A DNA stretch of 64,000 nt from Leptasterias polaris (Eukaryota > Echinodermata > Asteroidea > Forcipulatida > Asteriidae). The stretch is from the NCBI GenBank assembly GCA_037783415.1, contig JAZGTN010000007.1, forward strand, positions 751,501 to 815,500, given 5' to 3'. The position numbers and the translations under genes were made by a program. Under the pieces are notes generated by a model, which worked only from the letters and a program-made list of their open reading frames with translations, did no database searches and was not told the origin of the DNA. Positions 4,035 to 63,372 of this stretch are shown here, in pieces (position 1 is the first letter of the stretch; each line of letters opens with the position of its first letter).

Positions 4035-4131
4035 TTAAAAAAATTCTCTTTTTTCCTTCTCTCTCTTTCCTTTCATGTTGCTCCTCCTCTACCAACTCCA
4101 ACTTGGCTTTCCTCCAAACCAGGTAAGTAAT
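4035..4131 (+). other. Recursive splice site (ratchet point 1)
   Basis: A long pyrimidine-rich tract (about 4,042-4,118, with TTTTTTCCTTCTCTCTCTTT near its start) leads to CCAAACCAG|GTAAGTAATT. The acceptor AG is 4,121-4,122 and the donor GT starts at 4,123. Acceptor and full-consensus donor touch with no exon between them, which defines a zero-length exon. In known ratchet points the upstream exon is spliced to the AG, regenerating a donor that is then used for the next step. The tract begins about 35 bp after the end of an inverted pair of transposons. I see no clear YTNAY branch point in the last 40 nt. Confidence 0.6.
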
Positions 4132-5734
4132 TGTAACAATTCATTCAAAACTTTTAAATATAGGCCTATAACTTTCAGAAGGAGACAGACTGAAGTGAAA
4201 ATATTTTGTAACAGCAATCGTAATTGGTCAATCTGCAACCTTGCAAGTATTTTCATCTTATTACAGGAAATGTTAAATATCTGAAAAACCCAGAAAAATC
4301 TTGTCCATGGCTTGTTGGGATTAGGAGCTTGAGAAAGTTGATTACCAAGAAAATGTATTCATTTTTTGAGTGCTTGTTTATATGTTTATGTATTCAAAAA
4401 AATTGCTGTAAAATTGATAAAAATCTGTTTAATAGTTTTCCTCTTTCACGTTTAAGAGGCAATTAAATATTTACAAATCAAACAGACTTTTCCCGCTGGG
4501 TTGTTTTTCAACCTTGGATATTTCTCGTAAAAAACAGCTTTTCACAAAAACCTAAGTACTTAACAGGACGGGTTTGCCAATTGCTATAACCATATGAAGG
4601 AACTGTTGTAGTACATGAGAGGGTCACACATGGCTGACAGTTATTGATGAAATAATTCAACCCGTTGTCATGGCGATGTGTGGATCAGACACCTCACATT
4701 GTCTGCAGATGCCAACACAATGTTGTCAGTTGAGAAAGGGAAAAGTTTGGGGCTCGCTGAAGCCTGGCAGTTGTAAACACTCTGTTTTTATGATCGGGAT
4801 GTGGTCAACAAAAGAAAATTATTAGTATTTCACGGATGATTACCTCTGCGATATTTTCACATTAGGCAGCTGAAAAAATACTTTGCGGAAATATTTATGA
4901 AAAATAACTGTTTATTGATTAGAAAAACATTTAATAAAGAAATTTAAATTTTGATTTGCCCTGGAGCTTTAGATTGAATAAGATCTTCTAGGAAGGTAAA
5001 CAAGAATTCAGATTCTTTCCCCTGGCTACTGTGGATTATTTACAGCATTTACAAGTTTGTTTGGGGGCAGCAGAATCAGTTTGAGTCATGGACAGTTTGA
5101 AGTAGTTGTTAGTTTCGCTCCCCCTCTCAAGTATTTCTCAATTTGAATTTTTAGCTCATTTGTTTTAGCTCATTTCCTTAAAACTGACGTTTCTAAACTC
5201 TGCTCCCATCTAAACTAGAAACTCTATTCTGTGAATGTGTAAATCAAGTTGACATTTATGGATGTCTCGATTAGTCTTCCCTCAAGATGGAAGTCTAGAC
5301 CTGGACTTGTTTTTTTTACATTTGGGTGATATCTAATAATAATAAAACTATTTTTTTAATACCCTTTTTACACTAATGTGTGATGGTCTTTACAATACAC
5401 ATAATACACCAAGCTTAGTGTAACTTAGTGTAACCATAAACCAAAACAGTATTCTTTTTGTTCCCGATGAAATTACTGCTTCAAGTAGAAATTCAAGTTA
5501 TACACCCCCAATCTTTAACATGTAGCTCAAAGTAACATATTAAACATGGTGAGCAAATTCAAAACATGATTTCCAAAAGAAACCCAGAAACCCTCTGTTT
5601 CAGTTGGGATTACTCATTGCAAAGTTATGAAGTGCTAAACAACACCCCCTCAAAAACCTTGTGCTTCTCCCCTTAATATTCCCCACTTTTGAATACTTGG
5701 CCCTATTACATAGAGCAGCAAATATTGCTTTTTC
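4132..5734. other. Unassigned non-coding stretch
   Basis: AT-rich sequence downstream of ratchet point 1. No supported gene, RNA or clear repeat; short open frames at 4,075-4,466 are unremarkable. Confidence 0.55.
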
Positions 5735-5852
5735 TACCTAACAAAAATTTGCAGGAAACCAGTCACAGATGGTACATAATGAATGGTCTTTGAGCTGGTA
5801 GCCTTATTCTGGTTAGCATAATTTGTTTGGGGCTTATGAAATTGGGTCCTTC
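5735..5852 (-). mobile_element. Right part of GGGCCCAAT foldback element
   Basis: The inner motif ACCAGTCACAGATGGTA and the terminal motif GGGGCTTATGAAATTGGGTCC match the right half of the family consensus seen at 13.5-13.8 kb. The left half is missing or too decayed to see. Confidence 0.55.
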
Positions 5853-6248
5853 GTCACATGCAGAAGCACATACCACCAAACTGTCTGACAAAAGAAAGTA
5901 CAAGACAGGTTGATTTTAACCTTGTAAAAATCATGTATTGTGAAGAGCCATAACATATGTTCAACATGCTCTGCTGCTGGTGCATGAAAATAACAACAGA
6001 CAGTTTTATCACTAGTGCTATTATTACTATTAGAGCTTTCTTTACTTGAATTACTGGTCGTACTGCCTTGTTCTCCGCTATTCAGTGAACATGCAAAAGA
6101 ATCATGAAGGACCTTTATTGTTAGGAGATTTAAGACCGAATGACGCAAAATCATTAAAAGAAATCCATACATAGACGGCTTCAGAGCTTCTGTATAAGTA
6201 TAAAATTTCAATGGAAAGCATTTAGTGAAGTTTATTTTTGCCAAAGAT

Positions 6249-6420
6249 TGTTAATGGCCTGACATTTTGACCCTAGCAGAGTCTTTCTAGAAGGCTAAAA
6301 AAAAAAAAAAAAAAGAATTAGCTGTTGCAAAATGCTCACCTACCAAAAGGACTTATTATATAAATGGGGGGAAAACAATAGTTGATGGCCTGACATTTTG
6401 AACCTAGTAGAGTCTTAAAC
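6249..6420. repeat. Direct repeats with a CCTGACATTTTGA core
   Basis: Two copies, GGCCTGACATTTTGACCCTA at about 6,256 and GGCCTGACATTTTGAACCTA at about 6,387, each continue into GCAGAGTCTT or GTAGAGTCTT. They flank an A17 run and a segment containing ACCAAAAGGACTTATTATA that recurs at 16,710. The core resembles a dispersed marine-invertebrate repeat (GGTCGAAACGTCAGGCC when undecayed); that match is from memory. Confidence 0.55.
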
Positions 6421-6894
6421 TAAAGGTTAAGTGTTTTTTTTAAGAAGTAAACTTTGGGATGAACTTGTTTAGAAATACACCCCTTAATGATTCTGAAAAA
6501 GCTTTTGGACCATGTTGACTTTTTCTATTCAAATTGGAAACAATCAATACTTATTTCGCAGTTTGAAAAAAGAAGAAAATTGTCAACACAACGTGTTTTC
6601 CTCAACCACGAATGTGATATTCTTCCCCAGTCTTCAAACCCTCCTAACTTATATCCCACTCCTGAGACTGGTACCTCGGAGGCTTGTCAGATCAAACTAA
6701 GGTTAGAGCACGGCCGTAAGAAAAACACCCCGCTCGAAAATCAAAAAAAAAATGGTTGAGATTTGGGCCTAGTGGTAATTGCACCAGTGTTATTATCTTG
6801 CCCGGACTATGCTGACCTAAATGCATACGATTTTAAAGGAGAGCCTTTCTCAGGGGCGCACCCGTGGCTTCTTCTTGTTCGCTGGGTTCTTAAC

Positions 6895-7072
6895 CCCCTT
6901 CTCTATTGTTCTATTGTGAGGGGAGAAGGACAGGGCAATTGTTAAGGAGGGTCCCATTTGGGGAGATGATGATGTCAGTGAATTGATTAATGGGGTAGTG
7001 ATTGGGGACAAGTGTGGCCTGAGGGGGGAGGTGGAGGGAGGGGTGTGAGGACAAGTTTGAGGGAGGGGAGTG
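6895..7072 (+). repeat. G-rich block with quadruplex potential
   Basis: The + strand carries many GGG/GGGG tracts. The densest part, 7,020-7,072, includes GAGGGGGGAGGTGGAGGGAG then GGGTGTGAGG and GGGAGGGG. Four or more G-tracts with short loops fit a G-quadruplex motif on the presumed sense RNA. No repeat unit is evident. Confidence 0.6.
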
Positions 7073-7283
7073 AGAGCATGACACCCTAAAGGTGGACTCA
7101 GAGTGTACAATTAGGGTGAATCCATCCGAATTAAACTGGGCTATATCAACATTGTTTGTTTACAATATTTTTTTTCTGTGGATACCTGAGACTCATCTTG
7201 GATTGTCTTTGTCATGGGTGATTTGCGTTGTCATATCACATTGTACTTGGCAGTTAAGATAAGATCCATTGGTGCAGATGAGT

Positions 7284-7500
7284 TTAAAGGCAAAGTATAC
7301 CCTTGGTTTTTGGAACCGGTCGATTGTTTTAATTCATATAAAATGTAGATGTACACAATAAAATTAACCTGTGAAAATTTTATTTCAAAAGGTGGTAGTG
7401 TTTTGAAGATATTGCCGAAAGTCTGGAGCAGTCATGTCCACGCAGGATGAATATTTTGTAATCGGAATACATAATCTGAGAAACGTTTTGTTTCCGCGGG
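7284..7500 (+). mobile_element. TTAA-flanked element, left half
   Basis: It starts TTAAAGGCAAAGTATACCCT, then shows the family's internal AACCTGTGAAAATTTTATTT and, near its visible end, ATCTGAGAAACGTTTTG. The same order occurs in reverse in the 3,664-4,001 copy. The right terminal repeat is not found, so this is a truncated copy. Confidence 0.65.
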
Positions 7501-8994
7501 TGTACATGTCCAAGTTTTGTGTTTACTCGCATCACGTACTGACTACTACTAGCATACTAGTGCAGTTTGGTGCATTGGTGATCGAGTGAGTGGTGGAATG
7601 TTGGTCTAAAAACCAGGTATATTTCGAGCAAAAGTAATGTCATTAGTGTGGAGTGTTATTGTAGGGATGCTATGAGGTTAGAGACTGGTAGAGGATGCAT
7701 AGCTTTTACTCTGTACTCAAAGCTTCTTTGCAAATTAAAAAGAATTTGAGAATTTATATCGGGGCAGATTCCACTTAAATTGGATGCATGAATGTTTTGT
7801 ATAACAACAGATACTATTTGTACTGAGGGTATTTATTAAGGTTTTGTTTTTAATTGCAGAATGGCTGTAAACACACCTTTCCATTGTTATTGTCACCATG
7901 AAAAAACAACTCTAAATCCCTCTCCAGTCTTATTTTTCCCATCATTTCCAATTTAGCTAATTACAGATGTGGTGACCCCACAAACCCATGGGAAATACGC
8001 AGACGTTGCCATACAAAAATACAATGTCAGCGCACGCAGCACAAGAGAGAGTGGGTTGTGGAGATCAGACTCAACTATAGAAGCCTTATTAGCTACGCTT
8101 CTTAACCAGCCACAGTAGCCTGGTGTTATCCCTGACCCAACCAAGCGGACTCTGATCCATCGCCCAAACCCCTTCTGTCCACCTCTCTCGTAACTCCTGT
8201 TCGCTCGAGCTGTTACACCCAAAGACAGGGGGTTGGCCGGGTTATTTCGGTTTGCCAGACCCTCTCCTTTGTTCCACAATTATTTTGCAAAGGGGCATTT
8301 TAGGGTTGTATAGGCAGCGGATCCTTGTTTGTCGGTGCTGAGGATTTTGAAGGGTTTCTCTTGTGTATTGAGACTATTTTTCTTCTGGTGGTATCTTCGG
8401 AAGACATTGTTGGTTTATAAACACTGCGATATGTTGATGTCATGTGGTTATAACATTGTGTGTTCAATGGGCCTATTCTTGACATCTCCTGCCGGTTTCT
8501 TTAAGTGTTTACTTTTAGAAATAGAGGATAGAGGATAGAAACTTTCCCAATTTTTGTTGCAGACCTCTGATATCTTTGGCTAAAATCGTTCAAAATCTCC
8601 TGTATATGTTAAATCAACACCCAAATGTTTAGACCTACCTGTACTTACGATTAGTACATAAAATTGTATACGCTTGCTTTCTACCATTTTTGTTCTTCTC
8701 TTATCTGTATGTAGTTTCTTTAATTTTTGATCATTTTTCAATATGGAAAATGCGTGGTATAAGTAACATTATTATTATTATAGGATTGGTACACTCTATG
8801 CCTTCCAATATTCCAGGAGCACATTGCCTTCAAATCTCTCACAATGTTGCTGTTTGGAATCGCTTCTTATCCCGTTAAAGAGTTGTTCATGCACAAAAAC
8901 ACCTACAGTGTGTTGTTATTAATGTGTAGTGATTTAAAAAATAAAAATGTGCCCCTTGAAATACATGTGCAACCAGGGGAGCATACAGTCTGCT
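7501..8994. other. Unassigned stretch with a GC-richer block
   Basis: No supported gene. About 7,960-8,275 is richer in GC and CpG than its surroundings and gives a 108-codon minus-strand frame with no recognisable motif; composition is the only unusual thing about it. Confidence 0.45.
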
Positions 8995-10370: not shown

Positions 10371-10515
10371 ATAGGGAGACTGCCAACAAAGGGCTCAGTT
10401 GGTAGAGCGCTGGGACATTAATCCGGAGGTCGCAGGTTCAATTCCTGTTCTAGACAAGTTGTCTTTGTTTAACTCAAAACTATCACAAATTTATACAGTT
10501 TAGTTTCTCTTGTTG
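10371..10515 (+). mobile_element. tRNA-derived SINE, family A, copy 2
   Basis: AGGGAGACTGCCAACAAAGG leads into a tRNA-like part with GGCTCAGTTGGTAGAGCGC (A-box region) and GCAGGTTCAATTCCTG (B-box region), then GTCTTTGTTTAACTC and a decayed CAGTTTAGTTTCTCTTG tail. It is 5' truncated relative to the 30-kb copy. Confidence 0.75.
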
Positions 10516-12860: not shown

Positions 12861-12957
12861 AAGGCTGTTCAGCAAAACATACTACCAACCAAAATAATAG
12901 CAGGGCACCGGTGAAAACAATGTGAATGACAAATTTTCTGTGCTTAGCATGTTTTTA

Positions 12958-21526: not shown

Positions 21527-21629
21527 ACAGAACAAGCAGTACACAAATGACATTATTTGCTACCCATGTCTTCATAATCCCCTTCATTATTATTCATATT
21601 ACAGTGTGAATATTCATGACTCTGTCATC

Positions 21630-21735
21630 ATTCTAACCAATGTCTTTTATCCTTTCCTTCGCATGATTGTCTCGTCCTCCTTCGTTGTCTGCGATCAATT
21701 CTCAACCATGTTAACATAATTCTAGGTAAGTAATT
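21630..21735 (+). other. Recursive splice site (ratchet point 2)
   Basis: Pyrimidine-rich sequence at about 21,642-21,692 (segments such as TTTTATCCTTTCCTTC and CTCGTCCTCCTTCGTTGTC) precedes ATAATTCTAG|GTAAGTAATTTG. AG is 21,724-21,725 and GT starts at 21,726. A YTNAY-type branch candidate TTAAC lies at 21,711-21,715. The nine donor bases GTAAGTAAT are the same as at ratchet point 1. The tract is broken by several purines near the AG, so this acceptor is weaker than those at ratchet points 3 and 4. It follows an ATTCAT-rich block some 500 bp upstream that may be regulatory. Confidence 0.58.
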
Positions 21736-30002: not shown

Positions 30003-30262
30003 GTGATCCCTGCTGCAGCTTCCCAGGTTGTATCATAAACTTTGGTGTGATCCCTGGCTACACGGCAGTTACAGGTTGAATGGCTTCTGACTGGCACCCG
30101 AACAAACATATTGACAGTATAGAGAGACTGCCAACATAGGGCTAGATAGCTCAGTTGGTAGAGCATCGGCATGTCAATCCGGAGGTTACAGGTTCAAGTC
30201 CTGTTCTGGTAAATTTGCTTTGTTCAACCCTAAATTGTTACAATTTATTCACACTTGGGGAA
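30003..30262 (+). mobile_element. tRNA-derived SINE, family A, most complete copy
   Basis: A 5' body (GTGATCCCTGCTGCAGCTTC, then GATCCCTGGCTACACGGCAG, then TTGAATGGCTTCTGACTGGC) precedes a tRNA-like segment at about 30,139-30,211. That segment has TAGCTCAGTTGGTAGAGCA (A-box region) and GGTTCAAGTCCTGTTCTGG (B-box region), followed by TTTGCTTTGTTCAACCCTAA. The pol III promoter-like boxes lie in the middle, with about 135 bp of family sequence upstream, which is unusual for a tRNA SINE. The 3' tail (ACCCAGTC...GTGGTTT) is decayed here. Confidence 0.8.
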
Positions 30263-39890: not shown

Positions 39891-41415
39891 ATTCTTGCAA
39901 ACCATTATTTTTCGGACACATTGCAACAGTCATCAAACGGCACCCGTGGTTTCCTTATAGACTGTGCTAGCAGTAAACCTGGCCAAATCTGTCAGTTCTT
40001 CTTATAACCAAGGACATGTGAACTTCTCCAACAGACGCTGGTCATCCCGGCGATGTTTAAAACCAACATCCCAATCATAAAGTTAATCACATTTATTAGA
40101 AATCTAATCTTACAAGCTCATTCAAGACATACCTCAAGACAGAACGGTCAGAGACGCTGAATTTCCACTCCCATCAAATTCACAACAGGGTAGTTCTGTT
40201 GGGTAGACTCACCTGCACGTAGCTCACCGGTTGTTTCTTGTGTCACTGTTACTTGTCAAACAGTTAGATAAATTTACGAGAAAATCGAATTTGTTCTGAC
40301 GCAGCGGTGGCCAGTTTAACATTTTCGTCCATTCCGTAGCGCGATGTTTACTTAAAGGAAGTGATATTTTTTATTGGTTGTAATTTGAATAATTTGAAAT
40401 GACAGAGATATTACCTTTAAGCATAATTATTTGCTTTAAATGACTATAGCAACCAACTTCAAAAGTCTAAGTACCTTGTCACCAACCAATGGCAGTTTCT
40501 GACAGCTTGGTTGCATCCAATTCCACTGCATAACAAATCCTTTAGTTCCACAGAAGACATTTTTGTTAACAGTAGGCCTAGCTTATTATCCCCGAGAAAA
40601 CTGGAAAAATAAAAAATGTGAATGTTCCTTCTTTGTTGAGATTGCCTGGAACTAGTTGTTTTTACATTGCCCAGGCTTAAATTTGGGGGGGGGGGGGGGG
40701 AGGGGCCACAAGATGGTAGGGCTTGTAACTGAGACCAGAATTGAAATGAGAAGAAAAACAAGTTTAACATTTGAGATGAATTTGAACAAGCACTAAGAGT
40801 TATCTCATTTGTATTCTTGAACCCACAAGAGTTTATTTCATTTGACCCAGAATAAATGCTAGAAAACCAAACCCCCTGTGCAATAAAACAACAAATTGTA
40901 ACAATATGTATATTTGAAGAAGAGGGGTGGAAAAAGAGAGAGAAAAAAAGGGAAATAACAAGTTTTCATAATTTTTTACTTTTAATTTTGAGAATTTGAA
41001 ATGTGGAAATGACTAATTACTAACCCCCCTCTCAAAATCTGAATACACACAATTCTTGAATCTTACTGAACACCTTTAAGTCTACATGTTATTGTTTCTA
41101 AATATAAAAAGGAGCCGGATGCTAAATAAACCAATATAAAGGAAATTGTTGACTGTGTAGGTATCGCCAGCAATTAGCCACGGTCAATTAGCCTATACAG
41201 TAAGAGATGGCACTTGCCTCAGCTGATTTCATTTGCCTTATTAGTTATGCATTATCTTCGTTAGAGAGGTTCTTGAGTAGCCACTCCTACCGGTCCCCAT
41301 CAACAATATCAAGTAAGTGGAGTTTACTTGACTGATTTCAGCAGTATCCTATGCGTGTAATTGTGTCGTTAAGGTTTTTGAGAATTTACTGATGTAGAAA
41401 CTAGAAGCTTTTAAA
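39891..41415. other. Unassigned non-coding stretch
   Basis: No supported gene. It holds a G16 run followed by AGGGG at 40,685-40,705 and otherwise ordinary sequence. Confidence 0.5.
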
Positions 41416-42323: not shown

Positions 42324-42737
42324 GCGTGTCGTGGCCGAGCGGATAAGAGCACCGAACTCAAGCTCTGGTGTTTCTGATCAGCAGAGTGTGGGTTCGAATC
42401 CCAGCCATGACACTTGTGTCCTTAAGCAGGAAACTTAACCACATGCTTCGTCCTTCGGATGGGACGTTAAGCCGTAGGTCCCGTGTGTTGTGTAATGCAC
42501 GTAAAAGAACCCAGTGCACTTATCGTAAAGAGAAGGGGTTCGCCCCGGTGTTCCTGGTTTGATTGGCTGCATATTGCGCCACAGCACCTTGTAAACCATT
42601 ACATAGTGCTATGTAAAGGAATAGGTCTCATACCTCAACACGTAACTCCACATACCTTGTAGGAAAAATACTGAGCGCTTTGAGACACCCATCTGGAGTA
42701 TAAAGCGCTATATAAGAACTGCGTATTATTATTATTA
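42324..42737 (+). mobile_element. tRNA-Leu-derived SINE, near complete
   Basis: The head GTCGTGGCCGAGCGGATAAG...CCATGAC forms a 7-bp acceptor-type pairing, has a CTCAAGC anticodon loop (CAA, leucine), a long variable arm and the B box GGGTTCGAATCCC. The body contains CGTCCTTCGGATGGGACGTT and TGGCTGCATATTGCGCCACA, a central domain resembling the widespread animal SINE domain called Meta (from memory). The tail GAGCGCTTTGAGACAC...TAAAGCGCTATATAAGAACT ends in (ATT)n. About 413 bp. Confidence 0.9.
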
Positions 42738-43322: not shown

Positions 43323-43729
43323 GGTAATACGAAGTCTACTTCAGTACCAGTACATTGTTGCTTTCCCAATTTCCTGATTCCACAATTCCTCAATTCTTAA
43401 ACACCCCTCCTTTATTCTCCCAAATCCCCCATTCTGAGCCCAAATCCTGGGTTTACTGCCCTTCTTGTTAAGGAGCAAGAAGGGCTGCATCAAAGGTCTG
43501 TATGCTTTTGTCTGATTAACATTCCTAGGAGGACAATGGGATGAGATGGGACAATAGAGGAAGGCCCTAATCTCTGGCCATTTATTTTGTTAATCCAGGA
43601 AGGGGACAATTGATGTTGGGGCTTCCTTGGACAGTGTTTTGGGTTCAGGGGGCAACAAAGACTTGCAGGTTTTTGCTTATCTTATTGTTGAGGTCTTCGG
43701 CTGTAAACACTTGAGGAGGAGGATGAGCA

Positions 43730-44285
43730 GCTGTCTGTTTTGTTTCTTGGCTAATACTGGGGTGATTCTTGGGAGGGATTGGTGTGGGGGTTGGAGGTGG
43801 GGTTGGGATGGGGGTGGGGGAAACTTCAGGGGGCTGAAACTAGCAGTTGTTTCGCGGACTTGTTTAGTTTTGGGGCTTTTGGGTAATCCTTTGGAGGGAT
43901 CAGGTGGGGTTTGGGTCGGGGGGGTTGAGGATGGAGACTTCTAGGTGTTCAGATCTACCAGGTGTCTTCTTCTGGGGAACTTTACTGTCTGTTTAGTTTA
44001 TTGGCTTGTTATGGGTAATCCTTGGGAGGTATCAGGTGGGGTTTGGGGCGGGGGGGGGGGGGGGGGGGTTGAGGATGGAGACTTCTAGGTGTTCAGATAT
44101 ATCTACCAGGTGTCTTCTTCTGGGGAACTTTACTGTCTGTTTAGCTTCTTGGCTTGTTATGGGTAATCCTTGGGAGGTATCAGATGGGGGTTGGAGCGGG
44201 GGATGAGGATGGGGACTTCTAGGTGTTCAGATCTACCAGGTGTCTTTTTGGGGAATTCACTTTCTGTTTAGTTTCTTGGTTTGTC
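43730..44285 (+). repeat. G-rich tandem array, unit about 140 bp
   Basis: GGGTAATCCT recurs at 43,881, 44,023 and 44,161, each followed by TTGGGAGGTATCAG-type sequence, a G-rich block, GAGGATGGAGACTTCTAGGT, GTTCAGATCTACCAGGTGTC and CTGTCTGTTTAG. A more diverged unit precedes it (about 43,735-43,830). The G-blocks include a G19 run at 44,050-44,068 and, at 43,785-43,820, five G-tracts with short loops that fit a quadruplex motif. All G-blocks are on the presumed sense strand. Confidence 0.88.
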
Positions 44286-45557
44286 TTCAATGCATAGATA
44301 GGTTGTCAAACAAAAGATGGCTACAACAGACTGCAGTTTGAAAGTGAAAGTTACTCATAATATAAGAGTTTTAATCTCAACATTTCCAATGTAGATGATT
44401 TGATTTATGAATCCATAAAGTAATATTGGGGTTCACATCATGAAATCAAACCCAGATGTGACTGTGACAGCGGCGATCAATCTCAAAATAGTACAGGAAC
44501 CGGAATTTCTTGCCCCAAAGACTTGCCATGAGCAAAAAAGCAAAATTGTCCATCTCTCTGGTACACTAGTGGAAACCTCTAGTGCATTCAAGCAGTCATT
44601 GTGCAACATTTACATCCGATTTTACTCAGAAGGTGGGGAAGGAATTGCCACAAGGGCGGACCAATTGGTCTCCTTCTCCAGCCGTGTTTGTCAGGTTTGG
44701 GAAAACAAAACCCCCGGGGTCCCACAAGGGAGGGGGCCCACTGTTTGACCTCGCAAATATTAGTCTGGGGTTTGTGTGTGGAAGCTAGAGGCTGGATTCA
44801 GAGGCTGACAAATGCTCAGTGTATTTTTTTCAGATTTTTATTTTTCTTCATTGTACATGCCATGGACATGTGGGGAAAATATGTTTTGTTGTGGTATTGG
44901 AGATGGTTGGTTATGTTACACAAATACCCCAAGACATTGGCCCGATGGTGAAATGTTAGCACGAGTGGAAGGTAAAACATTGACACCTAGGAATGTTGAG
45001 TTGAACTTTTGTTTAAACCAAGAGTTGTGTAGGTTTAATATTTCCGTGAGAAAATTGTACCAAAATAAAGTAGTGTTGCGCAAAGGTTTACGCGTATTAT
45101 TTACTTGGATCCTTCCTCACTCAAAATTCAAAATAATACATTGTTCGATTCTGATTGTGGTGGTATGCTGATCCCATGTAAAGCATGATCAGTTTATGAT
45201 TGCATTCCTCAGTCCAATACCATACAGTAACTCGGCACCTAAACTGTTAGACTAGGATTATGGTGGTATGCCTGATCTTATGTAAAGCATATAATCAATT
45301 TACTTGTGCAGTCCTCAGTCCAACTGAATCTTGAACAAAACATGAAGTTTGATTTTGAAGGATTGGAGATGTTTTGGGTTCATAAAATAAAATCAAAATG
45401 TAAAATAAATTGTTGTGTTATCTTTTTCTAATAGACTATGATTTCCCCCAAAATGATTCCATTCCTGAAATTTTGTTAGTTATGGCAAGAAAAATCCTAA
45501 GATTTTACAAATCATTGGTGGCTTGTAAAAGTATCTCCACAAAACTAATCTGTTGAC
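44286..45557. other. Unassigned non-coding stretch
   Basis: No supported gene. Open frames at 44,440-45,171 on the + strand overlap in several frames and have no recognisable domains. A phrase TGGTGGTATGC...TGTAAAGCAT is repeated near 45,160 and 45,262. Confidence 0.5.
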
Positions 45558-45632
45558 ATTATTTCTTGTTCTTTTCCATGTGTGTCTTCACTCTCTTCAC
45601 TGATGTCTTCCTCATTTAGGTAAGTGAAAATA
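45558..45632 (+). other. Recursive splice site (ratchet point 3)
   Basis: An almost continuous pyrimidine tract at 45,560-45,617 ends in CCTCATTTAG|GTAAGTGAAAA. AG is 45,618-45,619 and GT starts at 45,620. A branch-point candidate CTGAT sits at 45,600-45,604, about 16 nt from the AG. The tract and donor resemble those of ratchet point 4: both contain TTCATG or TTCCATG, then TGTCT, then TTCTTCACTG or CTCTTCACTG, and both donors read GTAAGTGAA. This could be shared functional vocabulary or distant duplication. A tRNA-derived SINE begins about 190 bp downstream. Confidence 0.68.
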
Positions 45633-45807: not shown

Positions 45808-46245
45808 TAATAATAATAATAATAATAGTGGCTTCTTATATAGCGCTCATATCCGTCACTCAGTGACGCTCAAGGCGCTTCAACAGTCAGTATTTTCCTG
45901 CAAGGTATATATGTGGAGCTACTTTTTGAATTTTGAGAGCTATTTCTTTACATAGCACCATGTAATGGTGTACAAGGTGCTGTGGCGCAATATGCAGCCA
46001 ATCAAACCAGGAACACCGGGGCAAACCCCTTCTCTTTTCGATAAGTGCACTGGATTCTTTTACGTGCATTACACAACACACAGGACCAACGGCTTTACGT
46101 CCCATCCGAAGGACGAAGCAATAATGGTTAAGTGTCTAGCTTAATAAGGACACAAGTGTCACGACCGGGACTCGAACCCACACTCTGCTGAACAGAAACA
46201 CCAGAGCTTGAGTCCGGTGCTCTTATCCGCTCGGCCACGTGTTTT
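45808..46245 (-). mobile_element. tRNA-Leu-derived SINE, minus strand
   Basis: It starts with AATAATAATAATAATAATAG and TATATAGCGCTCATATCC-type tail sequence. It continues with GTGCTGTGGCGCAATATGCA, TCCCATCCGAAGGACGAAGC and CACGACCGGGACTCGAACCC, and ends in the head CTTATCCGCTCGGCCACG. This is the full reverse of the 42.3-kb element, about 438 bp. It lies 190 bp after ratchet point 3, in antisense to the presumed intron, so with the 42.3-kb sense copy it could pair in the pre-mRNA. Confidence 0.9.
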
Positions 46246-50036: not shown

Positions 50037-50927
50037 GTTAACCGTGATTTTTCTTGAACCCATGTGGGGAATTACTGACAAGACGTCATGGCTATCAATT
50101 ATTAAAACGAAATATTTTGTGACAGCGGTTAGCAAACAGTTAATAAGAAAATTTAAGGTGAGCCAATTCTATTTCTCTTCATGAAACGGTTTCGAGTTGG
50201 TGATAATTCTTTTCAAGGAAAATAGATTTATTATTGACATTTTGTGTGTGGTCTCAGAAAAGTACTGGTAATCACCAGGGACTTCAAACAGTATCTAAAA
50301 TATATATTATTTTTTTTGGCTGGAAAAAAGGAAAAACCTTATAAATTTAAAAATTTTGCCTTTTTGTTGTCTTTGGAAACTCTTAACAATACGAGCTGGG
50401 GAAATTACAGTTGTCAGATTAAACAATAATGTTTTCTTTAACTTCTTAAAAATGGAAAGCAAAAAATATGAGGAGAAAGCGAAAAGTGTCAGAGAGAGAC
50501 TTGAAATTCTGTGCAAAATAAGAATTTTATTTTTGCGCTCCTTTTTGTTTCTTGGTGATTTGTTTTGGCTCAGATTAATGCAAGCAATGAAACCTCAAAC
50601 CAGTTGTCACATTTTATGCACTCTTTTTGTCTTGCTTGGGCTCCCAACAGTGCATGCAATCAAGCGGCAGAACAGTTCCAGGGTGTACTATGGGAACAAA
50701 ACACCAACATCCACAATCATTGATTTGTTTTCACAAAGCCCTACTCACTCTTGACTGCATCATCTTCCCAACTGTATCTCTATCAATTGTCACCACCCCA
50801 AGAAACCCAAGACTTGATTGTTCTCTGCCAGCCGCTTGTATTGATTTGATTTCATTCCACAAACATCTTTTCTTTTGGCTTCTTTATTTTGGAGATTCTC
50901 AGACCATAGTGTGATAGATATCAAGTT
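50037..50927. other. Unassigned non-coding stretch
   Basis: No supported gene. The 132-codon frame at 50,356-50,754 is among the longest in the window, but it has no recognisable domain and an ordinary composition. Confidence 0.5.
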
Positions 50928-54256: not shown

Positions 54257-54316
54257 GGGTCAATGAAGGTCATTAACACGACCTCTCATCCCCCACACAG
54301 CCATGTCACACAAGGG
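54257..54316 (+). promoter_or_regulatory. DR4-type nuclear-receptor half-site pair
   Basis: GGGTCA (54,257-54,262), spacer ATGA and AGGTCA (54,267-54,272) form a direct repeat spaced by 4, with a further GGGTCA in CAAGGGTCACTT near 54,313. The surrounding 54.1-54.35 kb contains several ATTAATT/TTAATTA homeodomain-type cores. DR4 is the arrangement used by thyroid-receptor, LXR and other RXR partners in vertebrates. Confidence 0.35.
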
Positions 54317-56811
54317 TCACTTGCATCATTAATATACAAAAGGTCTTCATGGATTCTAGCCTACTCATTCTTCATCAATGTTTTTTGCGGGGGTGGGGGG
54401 GGGGGGGGTTTCTTTTGATTTTATTTTTATTCTATAAACACAGAGGTTCGCCACACTGGAGACATCTCGGCTAATAATAGTAAAACTATTTTGCGGGAAA
54501 CCATAAAAGGAAATAAACAATGCGGTGGTATAAATATCAAGTGTGGATGTATAAATGTTCAACATTTTCATCAAATTTGGGAGTGGTGTTCCGAAGGGGT
54601 ATGTTGAGGTTTCAGAAAGCCTTTTTTTTTTTGCTTTTTAGGGGAAGGTTATGATATGTCAGAGTCATTAACCGATATAATTTTATTCAGAAAAAGGTTG
54701 ATGAGTTTACATGAAAAATGAGTATAATTCTGGAATAATGTTCAAATGTTTATGCAGACAGTGATTGTATCTGCAAATAAGACAAGTTGAACGAGACTTT
54801 AAAAAAATCTGACTTGACTCTCAATATTTGTTTAATCTATAAAAAAGTACATTCCTGTGATGTTGGTGGATTAAGTATTCCCATGGCACCTCATGAGACT
54901 TACTGTCATCATTAATTTCTTACCAAGTCAGTGGTTACATGCACTCTGGTTAGGCTCTGCCTTTGTATGTTTAACCCCACTGGGAAATGAATGGCTAATT
55001 CCCACAGCCACATAGTTTATACACAGCCGACTGGAGTCCTAGACTGAGCGTCCACCGCCGTTTGATGCCAAGTGTTTTTGTGGTTTCTAGTGGGTGACGA
55101 TGTAAATATGAATTTGTTTTGCCTTAATGAGTCCGGGGCCAGACTAGAGGGCCAATGGAACTCATCAGATTCTGTTTATTGAATGTGTGTCTTTTATAAG
55201 AAAATTTATCACCGTTTGTTTTATTTATTTTACGAAGGAAAAATATGGATTTTCACTGTCAGATTTAATGGTTTGTAATTCTTGGTTTTGGGGAGTTTTC
55301 CAAATTCTGGAAGTAAATGTCATAATGTTTATCAGCCAATGATTCATCCGTATATACCCCAAAAGAATTGAATCTTGTTGGTTGATTGGAATCGGAATAA
55401 AATAATGAATTGTTGAGTTTTAGAACAGGGTAGGGTTTGGAGTAATTAGTGGCTTTGTGTATGGTTTGGATCTCCGTTTATGGCCTCGATGACAAAGAAT
55501 TTATACAACAGCAGTAATGACATCATGTCTTGAGCCATGGACCTTATCCAGTTCGTATAAAAGTGACGTAATCCCACTGTAAGCCACGCCCACTTCACAC
55601 AAACTGGCTCTACTGATTACCAGAAGCCCATAGGAGTTGTATTCAGCTAATTTTTATTGAGTGTTTTATGTAATTTTACAAAACATCACTAATTTCATCA
55701 CCAGTTCCAATTGCACTCTACCTGAACACCTAAGAGTGCAACATAGACAAGAATGAAGAGTGAACATTTGTGGGGGCCAAGATTTAATTGATTGATTTAA
55801 TTTATGCAAGAATAAATAATTGGACTTGGTTTTTACATTCTTCAAAGGCTTGAAGTCTTCTCAGAGTTGTCAATATTTCTGTCATTTGAGCAATGAAATT
55901 GGTAATTTTTGGTAACATTACACACAAAGGTATGTCAGATTTTGGAGCAGGAAGTGTTGAATGTAATTCTAAATATTTCCCTGATTGTTGTGCAAAACCT
56001 CCCTGATTGCAAGATGCAAATGTTGGCAGCTCTGCACAGGTTACATGGCGACATTGAACAAATAAGAAGCCCTTTCAGACGAGTTGAGCTGGTTCTCTAT
56101 TGTCAAGTATAATGATAACCGATTGGCTATTAAAGAAAGAAAGAGTTGACTATCGCCTGTCGGTGATAACATCAAGGAACATAAAGAAAAGACGATTCTA
56201 CACTTCCGCTGTCGGACAACGACTTTCCTGCGAGAAACTCTGAGTACTGTCTGAGTCATCAGATGTGAACCTGGACTCAGGGTTCACTAGAAGACCTCAA
56301 ACCAGATCCACAGTCAGGGTGAGGCAAGGCGCTGAGGGTCTGCGGGTGTAAACACAGAGAGAAACCACCCATTTGATAATTGATTTGTTGGGGGTTGGTG
56401 ACTGTCTGTGGATATAGCCTTTTATCAGAGTGTCAACTCCTACCTCCCTTAGGATTACAAGAAATGTCTTGCAAAGTGTCAAACCTAATTCTGTCTTTGG
56501 ATTTCTTTTATTTTTAAACCAATCGATGAAATGTCAAATTTAGGACGGTTTAGAAACTGATTCAGGTTTAGAAGTCTCCTAAGCGTACACAGGAAGAAAT
56601 GCGGTATCGAGATTGATGGATCAAAGCTAGGACCGAGAAAATTGATGTCACACCTGTGAGGAGTAAGAAGCGTGATTCAAGACAACCTTCCATAAGACTT
56701 TATATTTAGTACCTGCATATTAAGGCCATCTGTAAGACTCCCTTGAGAGTGGCCACTTCAAACAAGTTGTTCCTTCCAGTACAAAGGTTACAACATTGCT
56801 AAGAACATGTG
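54317..56811. other. Unassigned non-coding stretch
   Basis: No supported gene. G14 run at 54,395-54,408; a fragment GGACCTTATCCAGTTCGTAT (55,540) related to the 24.6-kb element. Confidence 0.5.
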
Positions 56812-56900: not shown

Positions 56901-59474
56901 ACACAGTGTAATTTGTAAAATTTTACAACCATGCTAAAATAAAGCAAGGGACCCCTGATAAATTGCTCTGGTGTGAATAGGGCGTCTGGGTTACTACAAT
57001 GTTAAGGTCAGTGCCCTGCGAGCTGGTAACTAACCTTGTCAGACTGTGAGATTCTTGTTCTTGCTCTCTTGGTTTCAAGACAAAGCAATCTTCTATGTCT
57101 AAGATTAATACTAAGATGACTTGTTAACATTGCAGGAAATTTGATTTAGTTTCAGACAATTGAATTACGAGCAGTGAAAATTGTGGTCAGTTTTTGGCTT
57201 TATCCCACATTGATCTAAATCAGGACTCATTAGATGTTGATACATGTACCTGGGAACAAGGGTGTCTCTTGTGTGTGCTTAGTGGTCAAGCCTGGCACTG
57301 TGGTCAAATCGGTTATGTTGGAATTAGGTAGAACCAGTTGGAAGAAAAAAGTGTTGATTGATGCTTCCCATGTCAGTTTTAAACAAGGATTCAATTTGTT
57401 AACCATGATTGTGGCAGTTTGAGCCACAATAATCATCAACATTTTTGCTGTTTGCCATACAGTGCCCTAACACTACAGACATTTTCATTTAGGAAGGGAG
57501 GGGAAGAGACATCATTTAGGGGGACTATATATCAAACCATTCATTTGTGCATTTTTTATATCACATTAGGGGGGTTAGAGGGGGAAACTTTCTCTGGAGG
57601 GTTAGTACTGGTACGAACTTTTTAGTAAAGTGATTTTTTTAAAATCAAATTGAAACTGATCAATTTCTTTTTAAGATAGTTCTTTTTACTTCCTCTTTAA
57701 TTTGACAGAAATCTGATAAAAACAGTCTGATTTCCATCATCCCTCAGAGCTTAAAATGATTTACAAAAAGATAATTTATTACCTTTTGGATCAGTGAGAG
57801 TGTATTGGCAATACAACAATGCATTGTTTTGGCTCCGCTGACCTTAAGTGACTTCTGAACTCTCCTAACCTTTGAAATTGAAAAGAATGCTGGTGTGGTG
57901 GTAATGGTGTTGGGTGTTAAACCTGACAGTGGTTCGCAGTTAGTGGCAAGATGTAACCAAAAAGCATTAATTCAACTGATGAGTGATTTATTTCTGTGCA
58001 GTGGTGGCAACTCTCTTCACGGCCGCCGATGCCAAAAAAATGCCTTAAATTTGTCATTTCCGCTTGGAAATACTTCTTGGCACTTGTAATGAATTAGGAA
58101 TTTCTGACTTCTTTATGAGGGAGAGGAAAGAAACGGTGTTCTTAATTGTGTGACCTGGGTCTGAAATCTTATCCGTTGTAAGGAATCGTTGGCTTTTATT
58201 TAGCATTCTTGACATGTTGGTTCTGGAATGCCCCTGTCATTAAGGCATAAATAAATAGCTAGAATGTGATGTAAAGGTTCTAGCATTTCTTTTGTAGAAT
58301 TTTGTTTTATTAGTTTCCAATAAACAATCTTTGTCTCATCAGTTTGGTTCCTGCGTTTTTGTAGGATCATAAAGTAAGTCGCTTTGAGCAGTTTGTGGTC
58401 ATTTTTATGTTAAAAAGTCTACACAATGTTTGGTTTTGTATTAAGCATGTCATTTTTAGTATTACCTTGTGATACTACCTACCATGTTTTGTGTTTTTAA
58501 ACCGAAATAAATAACAAGAAAAGATTGATCCTGCCTGAGGGTGACAAAATAAATAAAACACTCTTAATTTTGATGTCAAATTACATTTGATATCATTCTC
58601 TTCATTATAGAATATTTTAGCCAAATGTCACCCACCATTTAATAGACCACAATCTAGAGAAACATTTTTATCAATATTAAAAAATATTTTGAAAAGCATC
58701 GGTAACTTTATTGCAATGTAGATGTTTCACAGAGAATAAAATCTCCCATATATTTCAGAATTTAGGATGAGAGGAAAGCAGTAGCAACGACAGTTTGTGA
58801 TTTGGACTCAAACTCCGTAGATCTTTCATTCACCCGTTTCATCCCTAAGTAAAGCCGTAGAAACACTTAAAGAATAAAAAGCTTTGAGAAAATTCCTCAT
58901 CGAGGATTTGATATGCAAACGGTCGACTTCTTAGGGGCTTGTGTCGGTATCATGAGTCACTGAGAATTTTTTTTTATAAGGAGTGGTAAAAACCTGTTAA
59001 AAATTCATAAGTCTGTTCTTCGTGGGTTTACTCCTGCGATCAAATTAGAAAGGAGCTCCCATGTTGATGTGTTATGGGGCGGAATTGTTACATCTGCAAA
59101 GCATTTTACGATCGCAGCTTCGTCGTCGATGAGAGTTTATTATTTTTGTAGGGGTTTTTTTTGTGGATTTTTTTTTGCCGCCCTTGTCTCTGAGGGTTGT
59201 TGCAGCGAGGAAACTGTTGTTGTCTGGGAAAGTGGACGAGGGGGTCATGAAATAATAAATTTCCCATGCAATCTTGAGTGGATATTGCTGCAGGACATTA
59301 CGGCATCATTAGATGCATCATTGGTAATCAGTCCAGGCCGTAACTTCACTTTCTGGCCAAAATAAAATATCTATGTTTGGTGTAGTAGTCCAAAATTGTT
59401 TCTCTTTACTTCAGGGTAGGTAGGTCAGATTGTTTAAATTGTTAATAATGTTGGTCTTTTATTAGTTAAAGTCC
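56901..59474. other. Unassigned non-coding stretch
   Basis: No supported gene. Overlapping frames on both strands at 57,230-57,442 have no recognisable content. No clear repeat found. Confidence 0.5.
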
Positions 59475-59972
59475 TCACTGCCGAAGGGTAATGGCTCTCA
59501 CTACAACACAACAAGGCAAATATTTAGACAAAATATAGGATTCGAACTGCCTCTAGCTACAGGGCAATCTCTGTGGTCTAGTGTTAAGACATCTGCTCTG
59601 GAATGGCAAAGGTCGTGGGTTCGAATCCCACCTGAGTAAATGCCTGTATATATTTCTTCACGTACTGAGTGTACTGTTGAATGGTCAATAGAGCCAAAAT
59701 GTTCACAGGTCTGTTATTGTAGGTAGGCATACCCAGAGCTGTGGGGACTTTTACACAATGGAACAAAGGTCCCCCACAAAGTTTTTCTTTGTTAAACTGG
59801 GTCCCCACAACAAGATTCTTTAGAAAAGGGAGTAATAGAACAACAATAGGAAGTCCCCACAACGGGATTGGTATACATGTAGGAATACACAAAGTGAGGA
59901 TACTGGTCTTTGACAATTACCAGTATTGATGAAAAAGTATTGATGAAAAAAAAAAAAAAAAAAAAAAAACAC
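59475..59972 (+). mobile_element. tRNA-derived SINE, family C, with poly(A) tail
   Basis: A tRNA-like segment at about 59,568-59,637 has GTGGTCTAGTGTTAAGACAT (A-box region) and GTCGTGGGTTCGAATCCCAC (B-box region), preceded by GGATTCGAACTGCCTCTAGC. The body contains AGCCAAAATGTTCACAGGTC and three CCCCACAA phrases. A segment ACTGGTCTTTGACAATTACC near 59,904 is shared with the TTAA element family, and the copy ends in an A24 run (about 59,948-59,971). The exact 5' boundary is uncertain. Confidence 0.7.
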
Positions 59973-60049
59973 ACACAAAAAAACCTTGACTGTTTTTACT
60001 TTTTTTTCAAACATCAGGTTTACGTATACCAGAACAAATAACCAATACA

Positions 60050-60155
60050 TGTAGAGCCTAAACTTTCACAGGTTTGTTGTTTCATGCATATGTTGGAATA
60101 CACCAAGTGAGGATACTGGTCTTTGACAATTACCACAGGTATACCCTGCCTTTAA
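60050..60155 (-). mobile_element. TTAA-flanked element, one end
   Basis: The minus strand starts TTAAAGGCAGGGTATACCTG, then GTAATTGTCAAAGACCAGTA and TGTATTCCAACATATGCATG, and ends near AACAAACCTGTGAAAG. These are the first 100 bp of the family in good condition; the rest is missing or replaced. Confidence 0.75.
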
Positions 60156-60493
60156 ATCGAAGTGCAGTCAATTTACAAGATGGGGAAAAAACAGTTTGAG
60201 GATCTGAGGTATAATCAAAATGTTATCAGAGCAGTACAAGATTTATTATAAACAATCTGGAAAATGTTCAGTGGTAGTTTAATATCGAGTCAATGCTACA
60301 ACGGAATGGTGATGATGAATTACATTCAAGACGTGTGTTGTAAGCGAGAAGTGCTGGACGCTCTTAGTTTTTCGAATTAGATCAGTAAGAGGGACTCGGT
60401 ACTCTAGGGCCTTCCCTGGTTCCCCGCCTGGGAATTCATGGTCTGCAGTGGCATTAACTAAACCAGACATGACATTTTCATTTGGTGGTGGTA

Positions 60494-60511
60494 GGGGGGG
60501 GGGGGGGGGGG
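60494..60511 (+). repeat. G18 homopolymer
   Basis: An uninterrupted run of 18 G on the + strand, preceded by GGTGGTGGTA. It is one of nine G runs of 10 or more on this strand. Confidence 0.9.
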
Positions 60512-60639
60512 AGGTCTCAAGCGAGGGCAACGACATAATTTGAGGGGCTATTTAATGTATCAAATTATTCATGTGTGCATTTTTCCCCGATTTCATTTGA
60601 GTGGAGGTAAGAGGGTGCAGGGATTCTGTGCAGAGCTGT

Positions 60640-60805
60640 GTAATGAGAGAGTTGCGACATGGAGGGAACGGTTTTCTTTAGCCACGTGGTTGCTGGACGC
60701 CGTTTTCTGTCCAAATGCAGCACAACCCAATGTGCAGTCTAGTCTGGTATCCTGGGACAGAAAATGGCTTCCAATCAGAAGTTGTCGCAACTCTCTTATA
60801 AACAT
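60640..60805. repeat. Imperfect inverted repeat, GAGAGTTGCGACA arms
   Basis: Left GAGAGAGTTGCGACA (about 60,646-60,660) pairs with right TGTCGCAACTCTCTT (about 60,781-60,796). Inside it, CGCCGTTTTCTGTCC (about 60,698) pairs with GGGACAGAAAATGGC (about 60,753). The region gives 110- and 91-codon open frames on opposite strands, a common by-product of such structure. It may be a foldback element of another family. Confidence 0.55.
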
Positions 60806-60937
60806 AGCTCTGGTTCTGCCCCCGTGGTCACGCCATCGACAGTCGTTAGCAGTAAGCCTTTTAGACATATAAATGGAATCTGACCTTTGAAATGAACAGT
60901 CTGGTTTCGTTGTTTATAGTTCTCTGAAAAACCCCAC

Positions 60938-61016
60938 AACAAACAAACAGACAGATAAACACACACACAGCCCAACAAACAAACAGACAGACAGACAAAC
61001 AAACAAACAAACAAAT
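60938..61016. repeat. Compound tetranucleotide microsatellite
   Basis: Mixed CAAA, CAGA and CACA repeats, for example AACAAACAAACAGACAGAT and ACAGACAGACAGACAAACAA. Likely polymorphic in length. Confidence 0.92.
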
Positions 61017-61171
61017 GTAATTGTCAACCCTGCTCTGAATTTGTTCGATATTCATTCATAAAAAAAATAGACGTTAATGAGTATTTATTAATCTAATGTA
61101 TGACCGTACCTTTAAGGTAAGAGTGCATCGCTGCGTAGTACCTTTAAGGAGTACGGCGCTGCGTAATCCCT

Positions 61172-61545
61172 TTAAAGGGACACGTTGCTTTGGATTGGGC
61201 GCTTTGGGCTATAAAACGCATTTTTTATGAAATGAATATGGTTGGAAAGATGTTTTAAAAGTAGCATATTATGATCTACACAAACAAACTTCGAAACTGC
61301 GTGGTTTTCCTTTAACTTCGTAAACTAACACAGTTCGCCATTTTGTGGAGTCAAAAATTTTGCACTGCAACTTGGGGGGCAGTGTTAGTTCACGAAGTAA
61401 AAGGAAAACCACACAAATTCGAGGCATATCTGTGTGGATTATTAATCTACTTTTAAAACATCATTCTAACCATATTCATTTTATAACGGTTACAAACGCT
61501 TTTCATAGACCAACTCGCCCGATCCAAGGCAACGTGTCCCTTTAA
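61172..61545. mobile_element. Near-complete 374-bp foldback element with TTAA ends
   Basis: The left end TTAAAGGGACACGTTGC and right end GCAACGTGTCCCTTTAA are perfect over 17 bp. Complementarity then extends with mismatches through both arms, about 165 bp each: GGATTGGGCG with CGCCCGATCC, ATGAATATGGTTGGAA with CTAACCATATTCAT, GTGGTTTTCCTTT with AAAGGAAAACCAC, and TTCGTAAACTAACAC with GTGTTAGTTCACGAA. The loop is about 61,340-61,375. As RNA it would form one long hairpin. The half copy at 9.0-9.2 kb belongs to the same family. Confidence 0.9.
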
Positions 61546-63172
61546 GGTTGTGACTCATTGATGTGAATATTGCTAGCCCAGTTGGAATCACATTGGCTCA
61601 TCTCACTGATACCAGAGCCAGGTTGCTCTCCACTCCTTATCACTGAATGCTAATCGCTCTACTTTGATGCGAGAGATACGATCCAGATAACTGTAGAGTC
61701 CCCGTTTTCTTTAAGTGCTGTCTAAACCCTGAAGGAATCCCCACAAGAACAAGAGGTCATCGCCCTCAAACAACGACGGACAAAGCAACGGTACAGTCCG
61801 CTGGAAATTAAAAATGAGCATTTTATTTTTTATTTTTTTTATTTTCCACATTGGGGTTGGGTTGATTTGAGTTCATTTGTTAGTTGAGCGCCAGGGGGTA
61901 GATTGTGTATGGAGGTTTATCATGGAATTCACCTGTCTGTGTCTTTGAATGCAGACGTGTACCTAGTTAGTGGTCTAAGGTAGAAGGAAATGATAAGTGT
62001 ATGCTGTAGGTGGTACACGTTAGTTCATTAAAGACGTAGTTTGTCTTGCATTACGATGTCCAGGAAGTGTAGTTTAGTGGGAATTTTTTCTCCTTTGGAT
62101 AGTTCCGTTCAGACACCAGTCTGTCGCTGAACATTGAACAGGGTCCAACTTTGATATAGAATGATCTTAACTCCCACCTCTTCCTATGCTGTGAAGTATT
62201 TTCTCAATTTAAAAAAAAAATGTTGGACTGACGGAAATTGAGTGGCTTTTATCCACGCTCCAGCAAAGGTGCAGTAGATTCAATTAACGCGATGGTGATT
62301 CATACTTCCATTTCGTTTTCTTTTACGAGTAAAAAGTAAAAAAAAAAAAAAAAAGTAATACTTTAAGCTATTTTGATGCGCCTTTTTTTACTTACCTTGA
62401 GAAATGCAAATATTACTGACTTTTAAAGTTGCAAAAAAACCACATTTGTAATCCATTCCTTTATTTTTTCTTTTGCAAATGAAACTTGTCAGAAGTTGCT
62501 GTTTTTGCTAACATGATTTTTATGAGGGTTGTGTTACACCCCTTAAGAGCAAACATGAAAATGTTACTGACAATTATTAACGAAGTTGCAAGTGATACTT
62601 ACGTTCCGTTTACTCGAGAAATGAAATACAAGAAACCTATAAACAATTCCGTCTTTTCCTTCCTTGATGTTGATGAAGCATTGTCTTACAACCCTTGAGA
62701 CAACATGAAAATATTATCGTCTTTTATGAACATATTTGCATAAAATCCAGCCGCAAAAACTCTCGTTGAGTAAGTCAGAGGTATTCACATCTCAATGTGA
62801 CTGACAAATTCAGGAGATATATAAATTTCTGGGTGGTATACCTTACCTATTAAGTATTCGTAACCCTGTATTTTAAATGCATCTGAGCCATCGCCAGGGA
62901 GCATTTATCCGTCACATATCCCTCTGTCTTAGATTTCATTTTCAAATCGTTTTATCTTTTTTGATTTCTCAACCTGACATAGTGTCAAGAATGCTGTGAT
63001 GTTATTAACGACAACTCCAAAAAAAAAAAAGAAGTTGACTTGAAAAAGAGAAATGGTTTGACGGAGTGACAAGCGAAAACGTGGTTGGGCCTGCGGGGAT
63101 TTGTGATTCCATGTCTCCATCAGAATTATAGATGACATGTATACATACTTGAAATATGACGGCATTGTCTTA
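61546..63172. other. Unassigned non-coding stretch
   Basis: No supported gene. A15-type run near 62,339-62,354 and a duplicated phrase (GAAAATGTTACTGACAATTA region against AAATATTACTGACTTTTAAA) are the only structure noted. Confidence 0.5.
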
Positions 63173-63206
63173 GGGTCAGTGACCTAACTTGATTGGTCTG
63201 AGGTCA
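63173..63206 (+). promoter_or_regulatory. IR1-type nuclear-receptor site plus a half-site
   Basis: GGGTCA-G-TGACCT (63,173-63,185) is an inverted repeat spaced by one base, the arrangement bound by FXR/ecdysone-receptor-type dimers with RXR. AGGTCA follows at 63,201-63,206. The next 70 bp hold GCTAATTAGTC and TGAATATG cores. The whole lies just before the pyrimidine tract of ratchet point 4. Confidence 0.4.
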
Positions 63207-63294
63207 ACAGAAAGACATTAGCTTATGAATATGTGCATAGATAATGCTAATTAGTCAGGTGTGTCCTGATATTACCTAAATAACCTTTGTCCTA

Positions 63295-63372
63295 TTTTTT
63301 CATTTCTCTTTCTTTTTCATGTTTGTCTACATTTTCTTCACTGTGCTTCTTCTAATATCAGGTAAGTGAATT
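63295..63372 (+). other. Recursive splice site (ratchet point 4)
   Basis: This is the clearest of the four. A pyrimidine tract of about 60 nt starts at 63,295 (TTTTTTCATTTCTCTTTCTT) and ends in CTAATATCAG|GTAAGTGAATTT. AG is 63,360-63,361 and GT starts at 63,362. There is no space for an exon between the acceptor and the donor. A group of nuclear-receptor half-sites lies about 120 bp upstream. No open frame crosses the junction in a way that suggests a normal exon. Confidence 0.7.

Follow-up and report, generated by a model that had tools for sequence, protein, structure and literature searches.

Six predicted ratchet points in the 168-kb first intron of an ephrin gene of the sea star Leptasterias polaris

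The window analyzed here is a stretch of 64,000 nucleotides (nt) from the genome of the sea star Leptasterias polaris (contig JAZGTN010000007.1, abbreviated C7, positions 751501-815500). It was located within the first intron of an ephrin gene, the exon 1 of which is predicted. All of its positions (1-64000, + strand) belonged to the interior of this intron, and exons 1 and 2 were both found outside it. The window contained four sites at which a splice acceptor was fused to a splice donor, and two more occurred in the right flank. These six sites very likely represent ratchet points (zero-nucleotide recursive splice sites) of the ephrin intron, as predicted from the DNA.

The Ephrin domain (Pfam PF00812) was detected on the + strand in C7:875501-885500 with an E-value of 1.4e-14. 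It corresponded to exon 2, which spanned C7:879898-880193 and was preceded by CTCCAG. For exon 1, signal-peptide exons ending at a phase-2 donor were sought in the region from NCKAP1 (+ strand, last match ending at C7:704911) to exon 2. Six rows with five donors were obtained; one row was site 6 (see below), and another was an ephrin-like candidate that ended in ...TIHWDKNS plus AA|GTAAGT at C7:712298. Joined to exon 2, this candidate read ...TIHWDKNSNFGTDGLSVEAEINDKVKIECP..., the Ephrin score reached 63.8 bits instead of 56.6, and the profile match was extended from 20-111 to 3-111. A PDB search with the ephrin found Ephrin-B2 (1e-7). Because exon 2 was identified by Pfam and the joining of exon 1 raised the Ephrin score, intron 1 was placed at C7:712299-879897 on the + strand (window -39201 to +128397), with a length of 167,599 bases. 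The sequence-only reading had proposed a single + strand intron of at least 60 kb with four sites; that proposal stood, with a longer intron and six ratchet-like sites.

The base composition also differed between the intron and its surroundings. The GC and TA skews were 0.032 and 0.028 in the intron, whereas the 160.8 kb on its left side gave -0.016 and 0.002. In vertebrates, positive GC and TA skew is a mark of + strand transcription. The + strand of the window likewise showed an excess of G over C and of T over A, with means of 0.041 and 0.029 across 64 one-kb bins.

In the window, AGGTAAGT was found on the + strand at 4121, 21724, 45618, and 63360. The sequence-only reading had placed these four sites one base further on, at the G of AG, and its spacing was recovered upon recomputation (17,603, 23,894, and 17,742 bases). 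Site 1 was CAG|GTAAGT at 4121-4128 (AG 4121-4122, donor from 4123), site 2 was TAG|GTAAGT at 21724-21731, site 3 was TAG|GTAAGT at 45618-45625, and site 4 was CAG|GTAAGT at 63360-63367, all on the + strand. Each was preceded by a pyrimidine-rich zone without any AG, for which the share of pyrimidines in the 60 nt preceding AG (Y60) was calculated. These + strand zones spanned 4021-4120 (100 nt, Y60 0.78), 21605-21723 (119 nt, 0.67), 45532-45617 (86 nt, 0.78), and 63259-63359 (101 nt, 0.80), respectively. By comparison, the mean AG-free stretch was 15 nt over 7,477 AG sites, and among sampled positions Y60 reached at least 0.65 in 4.9% and at least 0.75 in 0.57%. The claim that the minus strand held no copy of the motif had to be given up. 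One AGGTAAGT was found there at 62390-62397; an A preceded its AG, its Y60 was 0.53, its AG-free stretch was 18 nt, and it had no pyrimidine tract.

The bare count of AGGTAAGT was weak evidence. Five copies were present on both strands of the window vs. 2.29 expected, and 11 of 100 shuffles contained five or more. If the count alone is considered, the copies are ordinary and could be attributed to chance. The upstream architecture, more than copy number, was the strong part of the observation. Copies with a pyrimidine ahead of AG (YAGGTAAGT) numbered 8,084 in the 629.7 Mb genome (4,218 + 3,866), equivalent to 0.41 per strand per 64 kb, and the Poisson probability of at least four was 0.0009. 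On the two strands together, 28 AG sites had Y60 of at least 0.65 and at least 80 AG-free nt; GTAAGT came next in four of them, compared with 0.019 expected. Across 15 pairs of thresholds, which were set post hoc with the sites already seen, the hypergeometric probability that GTAAGT follows tract-bearing AG sites in this way ranged from 2.7e-5 to 8e-10. When 560 letter permutations were counted on two strands, more than two tract-backed copies (Y60 of at least 0.63) appeared in one of 1,120 cases, and that sole case was AGGTAAGT itself on the + strand, with four out of four. The architecture was absent from the first eight listed genomic YAGGTAAGT loci, which had AG-free stretches of 1-54 nt and Y60 of 0.35-0.55; two of them were near-copies of each other. 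The AG-free zone and the consensus donor together were the discriminating feature of the sites. Against this joint architecture and the independent confirmation from the flank described next, the probability of a chance origin was considered negligible.

The flank test carried more weight than the window statistics because the window thresholds had been chosen post hoc. The scanned region was extended by 200 kb on the left and 70 kb on the right. In the resulting 334 kb, 1,029 YAGGT sites were found, 24 of which had at least 50 AG-free nt and Y60 of at least 0.6. Six of the 24 carried a 4.9-bit donor, all on the + strand, and the next best donor scored 2.0 bits (the splice matrices used here are based on human frequencies). 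Two of the six were new: site 5 (TAG|GTGAGT) at C7:829904 (window +78404) and site 6 (TAG|GTAAGT) at C7:858738 (window +107238), both on the + strand of the right flank. The left 200 kb yielded none by the same rule, nor did the other strand. Altogether, acceptor and donor were juxtaposed at all six sites, as YAG|GTAAGT at five and TAG|GTGAGT at one, with Y60 of 0.67-0.82 and a pyrimidine tract in which no competing AG occurred for 84-119 nt. All six fell on the sense strand of the intron, for which the probability by chance was about 2.5e-4. The sites, their acceptor architecture, and this confinement are plain in the DNA itself. As for AGGTAAGT as such, six copies were present on the + strand of the intron (five sites plus C7:837015) and two on the minus strand, at C7:745247 and C7:813897, with 8 and 18 AG-free nt. 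Four copies on the + strand and two on the minus strand were found in the left 200 kb, where the AG-free stretch was at most 52 nt.

The six elements also resembled one another beyond the splice consensus, a feature that is possibly new. Sites 3 and 4 were the closest pair and shared an element on the + strand (45561-45628 and 63302-63370) with 77% identity over 69 columns (E 7e-10). The alignment contained one- and two-base indels, its edge was just beyond the donor, and the 4-kb flanks of the two sites had no match besides this element. A profile built on the upstream portions of sites 3 and 4 recovered neither site 1 nor site 2, and the likeness of the other sites to this pair was visible in whole-set comparisons alone. 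For the last 75 bases ahead of AG, the fifteen pairwise scores summed to 469, compared with a maximum of 379 in 300 local shuffles. Control sets of six were sampled out of 230 pyrimidine tracts in this region that lacked AG, and 469 was reached by 6 of 20,000 such sets and by none of 20,000 sets matched for pyrimidine content. Taken singly, just six of the 15 pairs had a P of 0.05 or lower. A CATGT box, which was selected post hoc, stood at -47, -41, -42, and -42 at sites 1, 3, 4, and 5 and occurred between -50 and -38 in nine of the 230 control tracts.

This likeness raises the question of whether the sites are dispersed repeat copies that carry the motif by chance. Besides the identity between sites 3 and 4 and the resemblance of all six 75-nt elements relative to the control tracts, 26 bases of the sequence around site 4 were found again at 41305-41330 (E 0.009). 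A separate repeat bearing GAG|GTAAGT, with 43 AG-free nt at C7:837015, was present both there and at C7:674249. However, the similarity between sites 3 and 4 ended at the element edges, the profile of their element gave no further match in the window better than E 0.67, and plain repeat copies would be expected on both strands. A repeat origin of this kind was regarded as highly improbable.

Another explanation is that the sites are donors belonging to small initial or alternative exons, such as signal-peptide exons, with hydrophobic codons taking on the appearance of a pyrimidine tract. Open ATG frames did end at sites 1, 4, and 5 (MLLLLYQLQLGFPPNQ, MFVYIFFTVLLLIS, and MFICHPFTCIFSKL), with the ATG 43-48 bases ahead of the junction, and a longer frame at site 6 (MVSFFLSLSFPFVQICRFSFSSNSTWTFAIV) ended in the phase required by exon 2. 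However, exon 2 requires phase 2, and phases 0, 1, and 1 were found for the frames ending at sites 1, 4, and 5. Stops were encountered at sites 2 and 3, save for a phase-2 frame of five residues at site 3, and indels of one and two bases separated sites 3 and 4. The frame at site 6, the sole place where phase permits such an exon, gave 57.6 bits when joined to exon 2, vs. 56.6 for exon 2 alone and 63.8 with the proposed exon 1. Moreover, coding exons do not require an AG-free zone of 84-119 nt, which was present at all six sites. The signal-peptide exon reading was rejected chiefly on phase and stops, and we consider it very unlikely.

Under the ratchet-point reading, intron 1 would be removed in steps. 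Exon 1, which ends in ...TTCAAA followed by GTAAGT, would be joined first to the AG of site 1. Because GTAAGT directly follows AG, a donor would be regenerated at each site: the junction at site 1 would again read AAA|GTAAGT, and the original 5' splice site would be restored. The cycle would recur site by site, giving AAA|GTGAGT at site 5 and AAA|GTAAGT at the other five. In the final step, the acceptor ahead of exon 2 would be used, and the net product would be a direct in-frame fusion of exons 1 and 2 (AA|C, Asn). The exon frame and the regenerated donor can be read from the DNA; that the spliceosome would use the six sites, and in this order, we infer. The acceptor of exon 2 was built like the sites, with 88 AG-free nt and Y60 of 0.77. 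In the NCKAP1 region, six of eight acceptors had AG-free stretches of 26-36 nt and the other two had 75 and 88 nt; therefore, long AG-free zones were not unique to the sites. The seven segments would measure 43.3, 17.6, 23.9, 17.7, 15.0, 28.8, and 21.2 kb. As computed with the intron ends one base off, they were more even than under random division, with a P of 0.011 by coefficient of variation, 0.003 by the smallest segment, and 0.10 by the largest.

Several results weighed against the ratchet-point reading. The first segment, at 43.3 kb, was roughly double the average of the remaining ones. The normalized log-odds scores of sites 1-4 were 0.80, 0.68, 0.85, and 0.79, site 2 having the lowest acceptor score by position matrix. 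By this score the four were not exceptional as a set: at a log-odds of at least 0.75, the window contained four sites per strand, and the intron contained six sense and six antisense sites at 0.75 and two of each at 0.80. With a matrix score in the style of Shepard et al., 0.80 was reached at two of the six sites by frequency and at two by log-odds. A standard ratchet point (RP) scan alone would recover two or three of the window sites plus some false ones and would not single them out. The recursive-splicing exon (RS-exon), a cryptic exon that brings its own donor a short way downstream, was another weak point. The best donors at +20 to +200 scored -1.8, 4.0, -0.8, -1.1, 4.1, and -3.1 bits at sites 1-6, and four of these lay below the background median of 0.69 bits; in that range, no good RS-exon donor was recognized by the matrix at these four sites. 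The two donors of about 4 bits were AAT|GTAAGT at +130 of site 2 and GGG|GTGGGG at +56 of site 5. The branch motif YNYTRAY was present within the AG-free zone at four sites, and none was found in the zones of sites 1 and 5.

The moderate matrix scores at several sites would also fit splice-competent elements that are not used stepwise, such as decoys, binding platforms for U1 or U2AF, or rarely used pseudoexon acceptors, and use is not readable from sequence. However, strict confinement to the sense strand, a strong donor fused directly to the acceptor at all six sites, and fairly even spacing are traits of recursive sites, and a decoy acceptor has no need of GTAAGT straight after its AG. Such elements were judged an unlikely explanation, and the ratchet-point reading was retained.

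In a six-frame Pfam scan of the window (stops as X), no domain was found at E of 1 or lower except Pentapeptide (0.16); as a control, a 43-residue ubiquitin piece placed in a 499-residue mock was detected at 7e-17. The scan of the intron covered the whole + strand, divided into 10- to 13-kb pieces, and the minus strand in all but C7:711501-741500, and it would overlook very short or fast-evolving exons. Its single solid match was a reverse transcriptase (PF00078, 1.3e-22, from two translated members), and the others were 0.013 or weaker. One place of this reverse transcriptase similarity, C7:744006-744179 (+), marked a retroelement in the sense direction within the first intron segment. Matrix-based prediction of internal exons gave two in the window under strict thresholds, both on the minus strand. 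Looser thresholds gave ten rows at seven places touching the window, of which three were on the + strand (window -45 to 30, 43599-43903 within a tandem repeat, and 54301-54392) and had no Pfam match. Some of these predictions may nevertheless be exons. A PDB search with + frame 1 over 1-59999 gave a single match at E of 0.1 or lower (a decarboxylase, 0.088), and the best match of the open reading frame at 50299-50754 was 0.37. In protein searches with open reading frames of the window, one had no matches and one found 40 short unnamed proteins, all matching a repeat.

Repeats were also observed in the window. An inverted repeat pair at 42330-42737 and 45814-46239 showed 85% identity over 428 columns, with the second copy shortly past site 3, and a frame of it was what the above 40 proteins, short unnamed predictions from public data, matched. 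Matches resembling tRNA were found on the + strand at 30140-30212, 59567-59639, and 10390-10452 (Rfam tRNA; ARAGORN assigned Asp and Ser to the first two). Those at 30140-30212 and 10390-10452 lay within a repeat also present near 1.7, 43, and 51 kb, and the tRNA-like matches are probably tRNA-derived short interspersed elements. Outside the window, the loci C7:674249 and C7:837015 (window +85515), both on the + strand, were near-identical repeat copies with GAG|GTAAGT, in which a donor-like motif had been spread by a repeat. A tandem gene array was considered and rejected: among the best 90 of 114 protein-level self matches, none linked the sites, and the same-strand DNA matches linking their 4-kb flanks were the element common to sites 3 and 4 and a single 67-base repeat close to sites 1 and 3.

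In the left flank, Pfam identified Nckap1 (2.6e-57) and the N-terminal domain of RPN1 (9e-32). An NCKAP1 exon, of which 39 residues were matched, was present five times in tandem in 181-base steps at C7:696855-697695 (window -54645 to -53805), the matched residues being identical. The exon may have been captured by a tandem repeat, or the array may be an artefact of assembly.

Ratchet points in Drosophila were reportedly the subject of work by Hatton in 1998, Burnette in 2005, and Duff in 2015, according to citing papers, and vertebrate recursive sites with RS-exons are said to have been treated by Sibley in 2015. Stepwise intron removal is a known mechanism, of which the six-site ephrin intron is probably a further predicted case. 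The sites share with Drosophila ratchet points a pyrimidine tract, an AG|GTAAGT core, placement in the sense orientation in a very long intron, occurrence of several per intron at fairly even spacing, and a regenerated donor matching the original strength (PMC6110457; PMC8605326). A tendency of ratchet points to divide introns evenly is described in flies (PMC6110457). Unlike those of Drosophila, the present sites had a poor RS-exon donor at four of six, consisted of mutually similar elements, and are known from sequence alone. The RS-exon is held to be necessary in flies by Joseph et al. (PMC8605326), and intron definition is mentioned as an alternative by Pai et al. (PMC6110457). The lack of a good downstream RS-exon donor at four of the six sites is possibly new. 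Vertebrate recursive sites are likewise fused acceptor-donors within long introns; however, they rely on an RS-exon with its own donor (PMC6224609), which was poor at these same four sites. AG-free zones of about 100 nt are shared with distant-branch-point acceptors, and 838 of 67,334 human exons have an AG exclusion zone of at least 100 nt. Such acceptors serve ordinary or alternative exons, not zero-length ones (PMC1431707); the branch sites here are only candidates.

In sea urchin, Table 2 of Shepard et al. (2009; PMC2773006) gives 0.540 RP-sites per 100 kb of large introns vs. 0.066 on the complementary strand, as predicted from sequence. The motif class and the strand bias are alike here, and that table, in the excerpt at hand, gives counts per 100 kb and names no loci, whereas the present case is one intron with six sites. 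This intron contained 3.6 sites per 100 kb by the present rule and 1.2 (two sites) by the 80% matrix score, which is closer to the method of PMC2773006, vs. its mean of 0.54. The suggestion that such a system is undescribed in echinoderms held in part: enrichment had already been predicted in sea urchin (PMC2773006), and no RNA-level ratchet point was found in the open-licence literature on echinoderm recursive splicing, as far as its text was accessible.

Tentatively, and with more doubt than confidence, the six elements might be one family of about 75 nt that multiplied within the ephrin intron, or that is held alike by a shared factor at CATGT around -42, and that works mostly by intron definition without RS-exons. 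The locus provides a concrete case for recursive splicing in a metazoan, together with its exons, their reading frame, and six junction positions. Should the sites be used, the ephrin gene would depend on the removal of 168 kb as seven pieces, and the resemblance among the elements would offer a way into the question of how ratchet points originate. If the elements do form one family, ratchet points would be able to spread via local duplication during intron growth.

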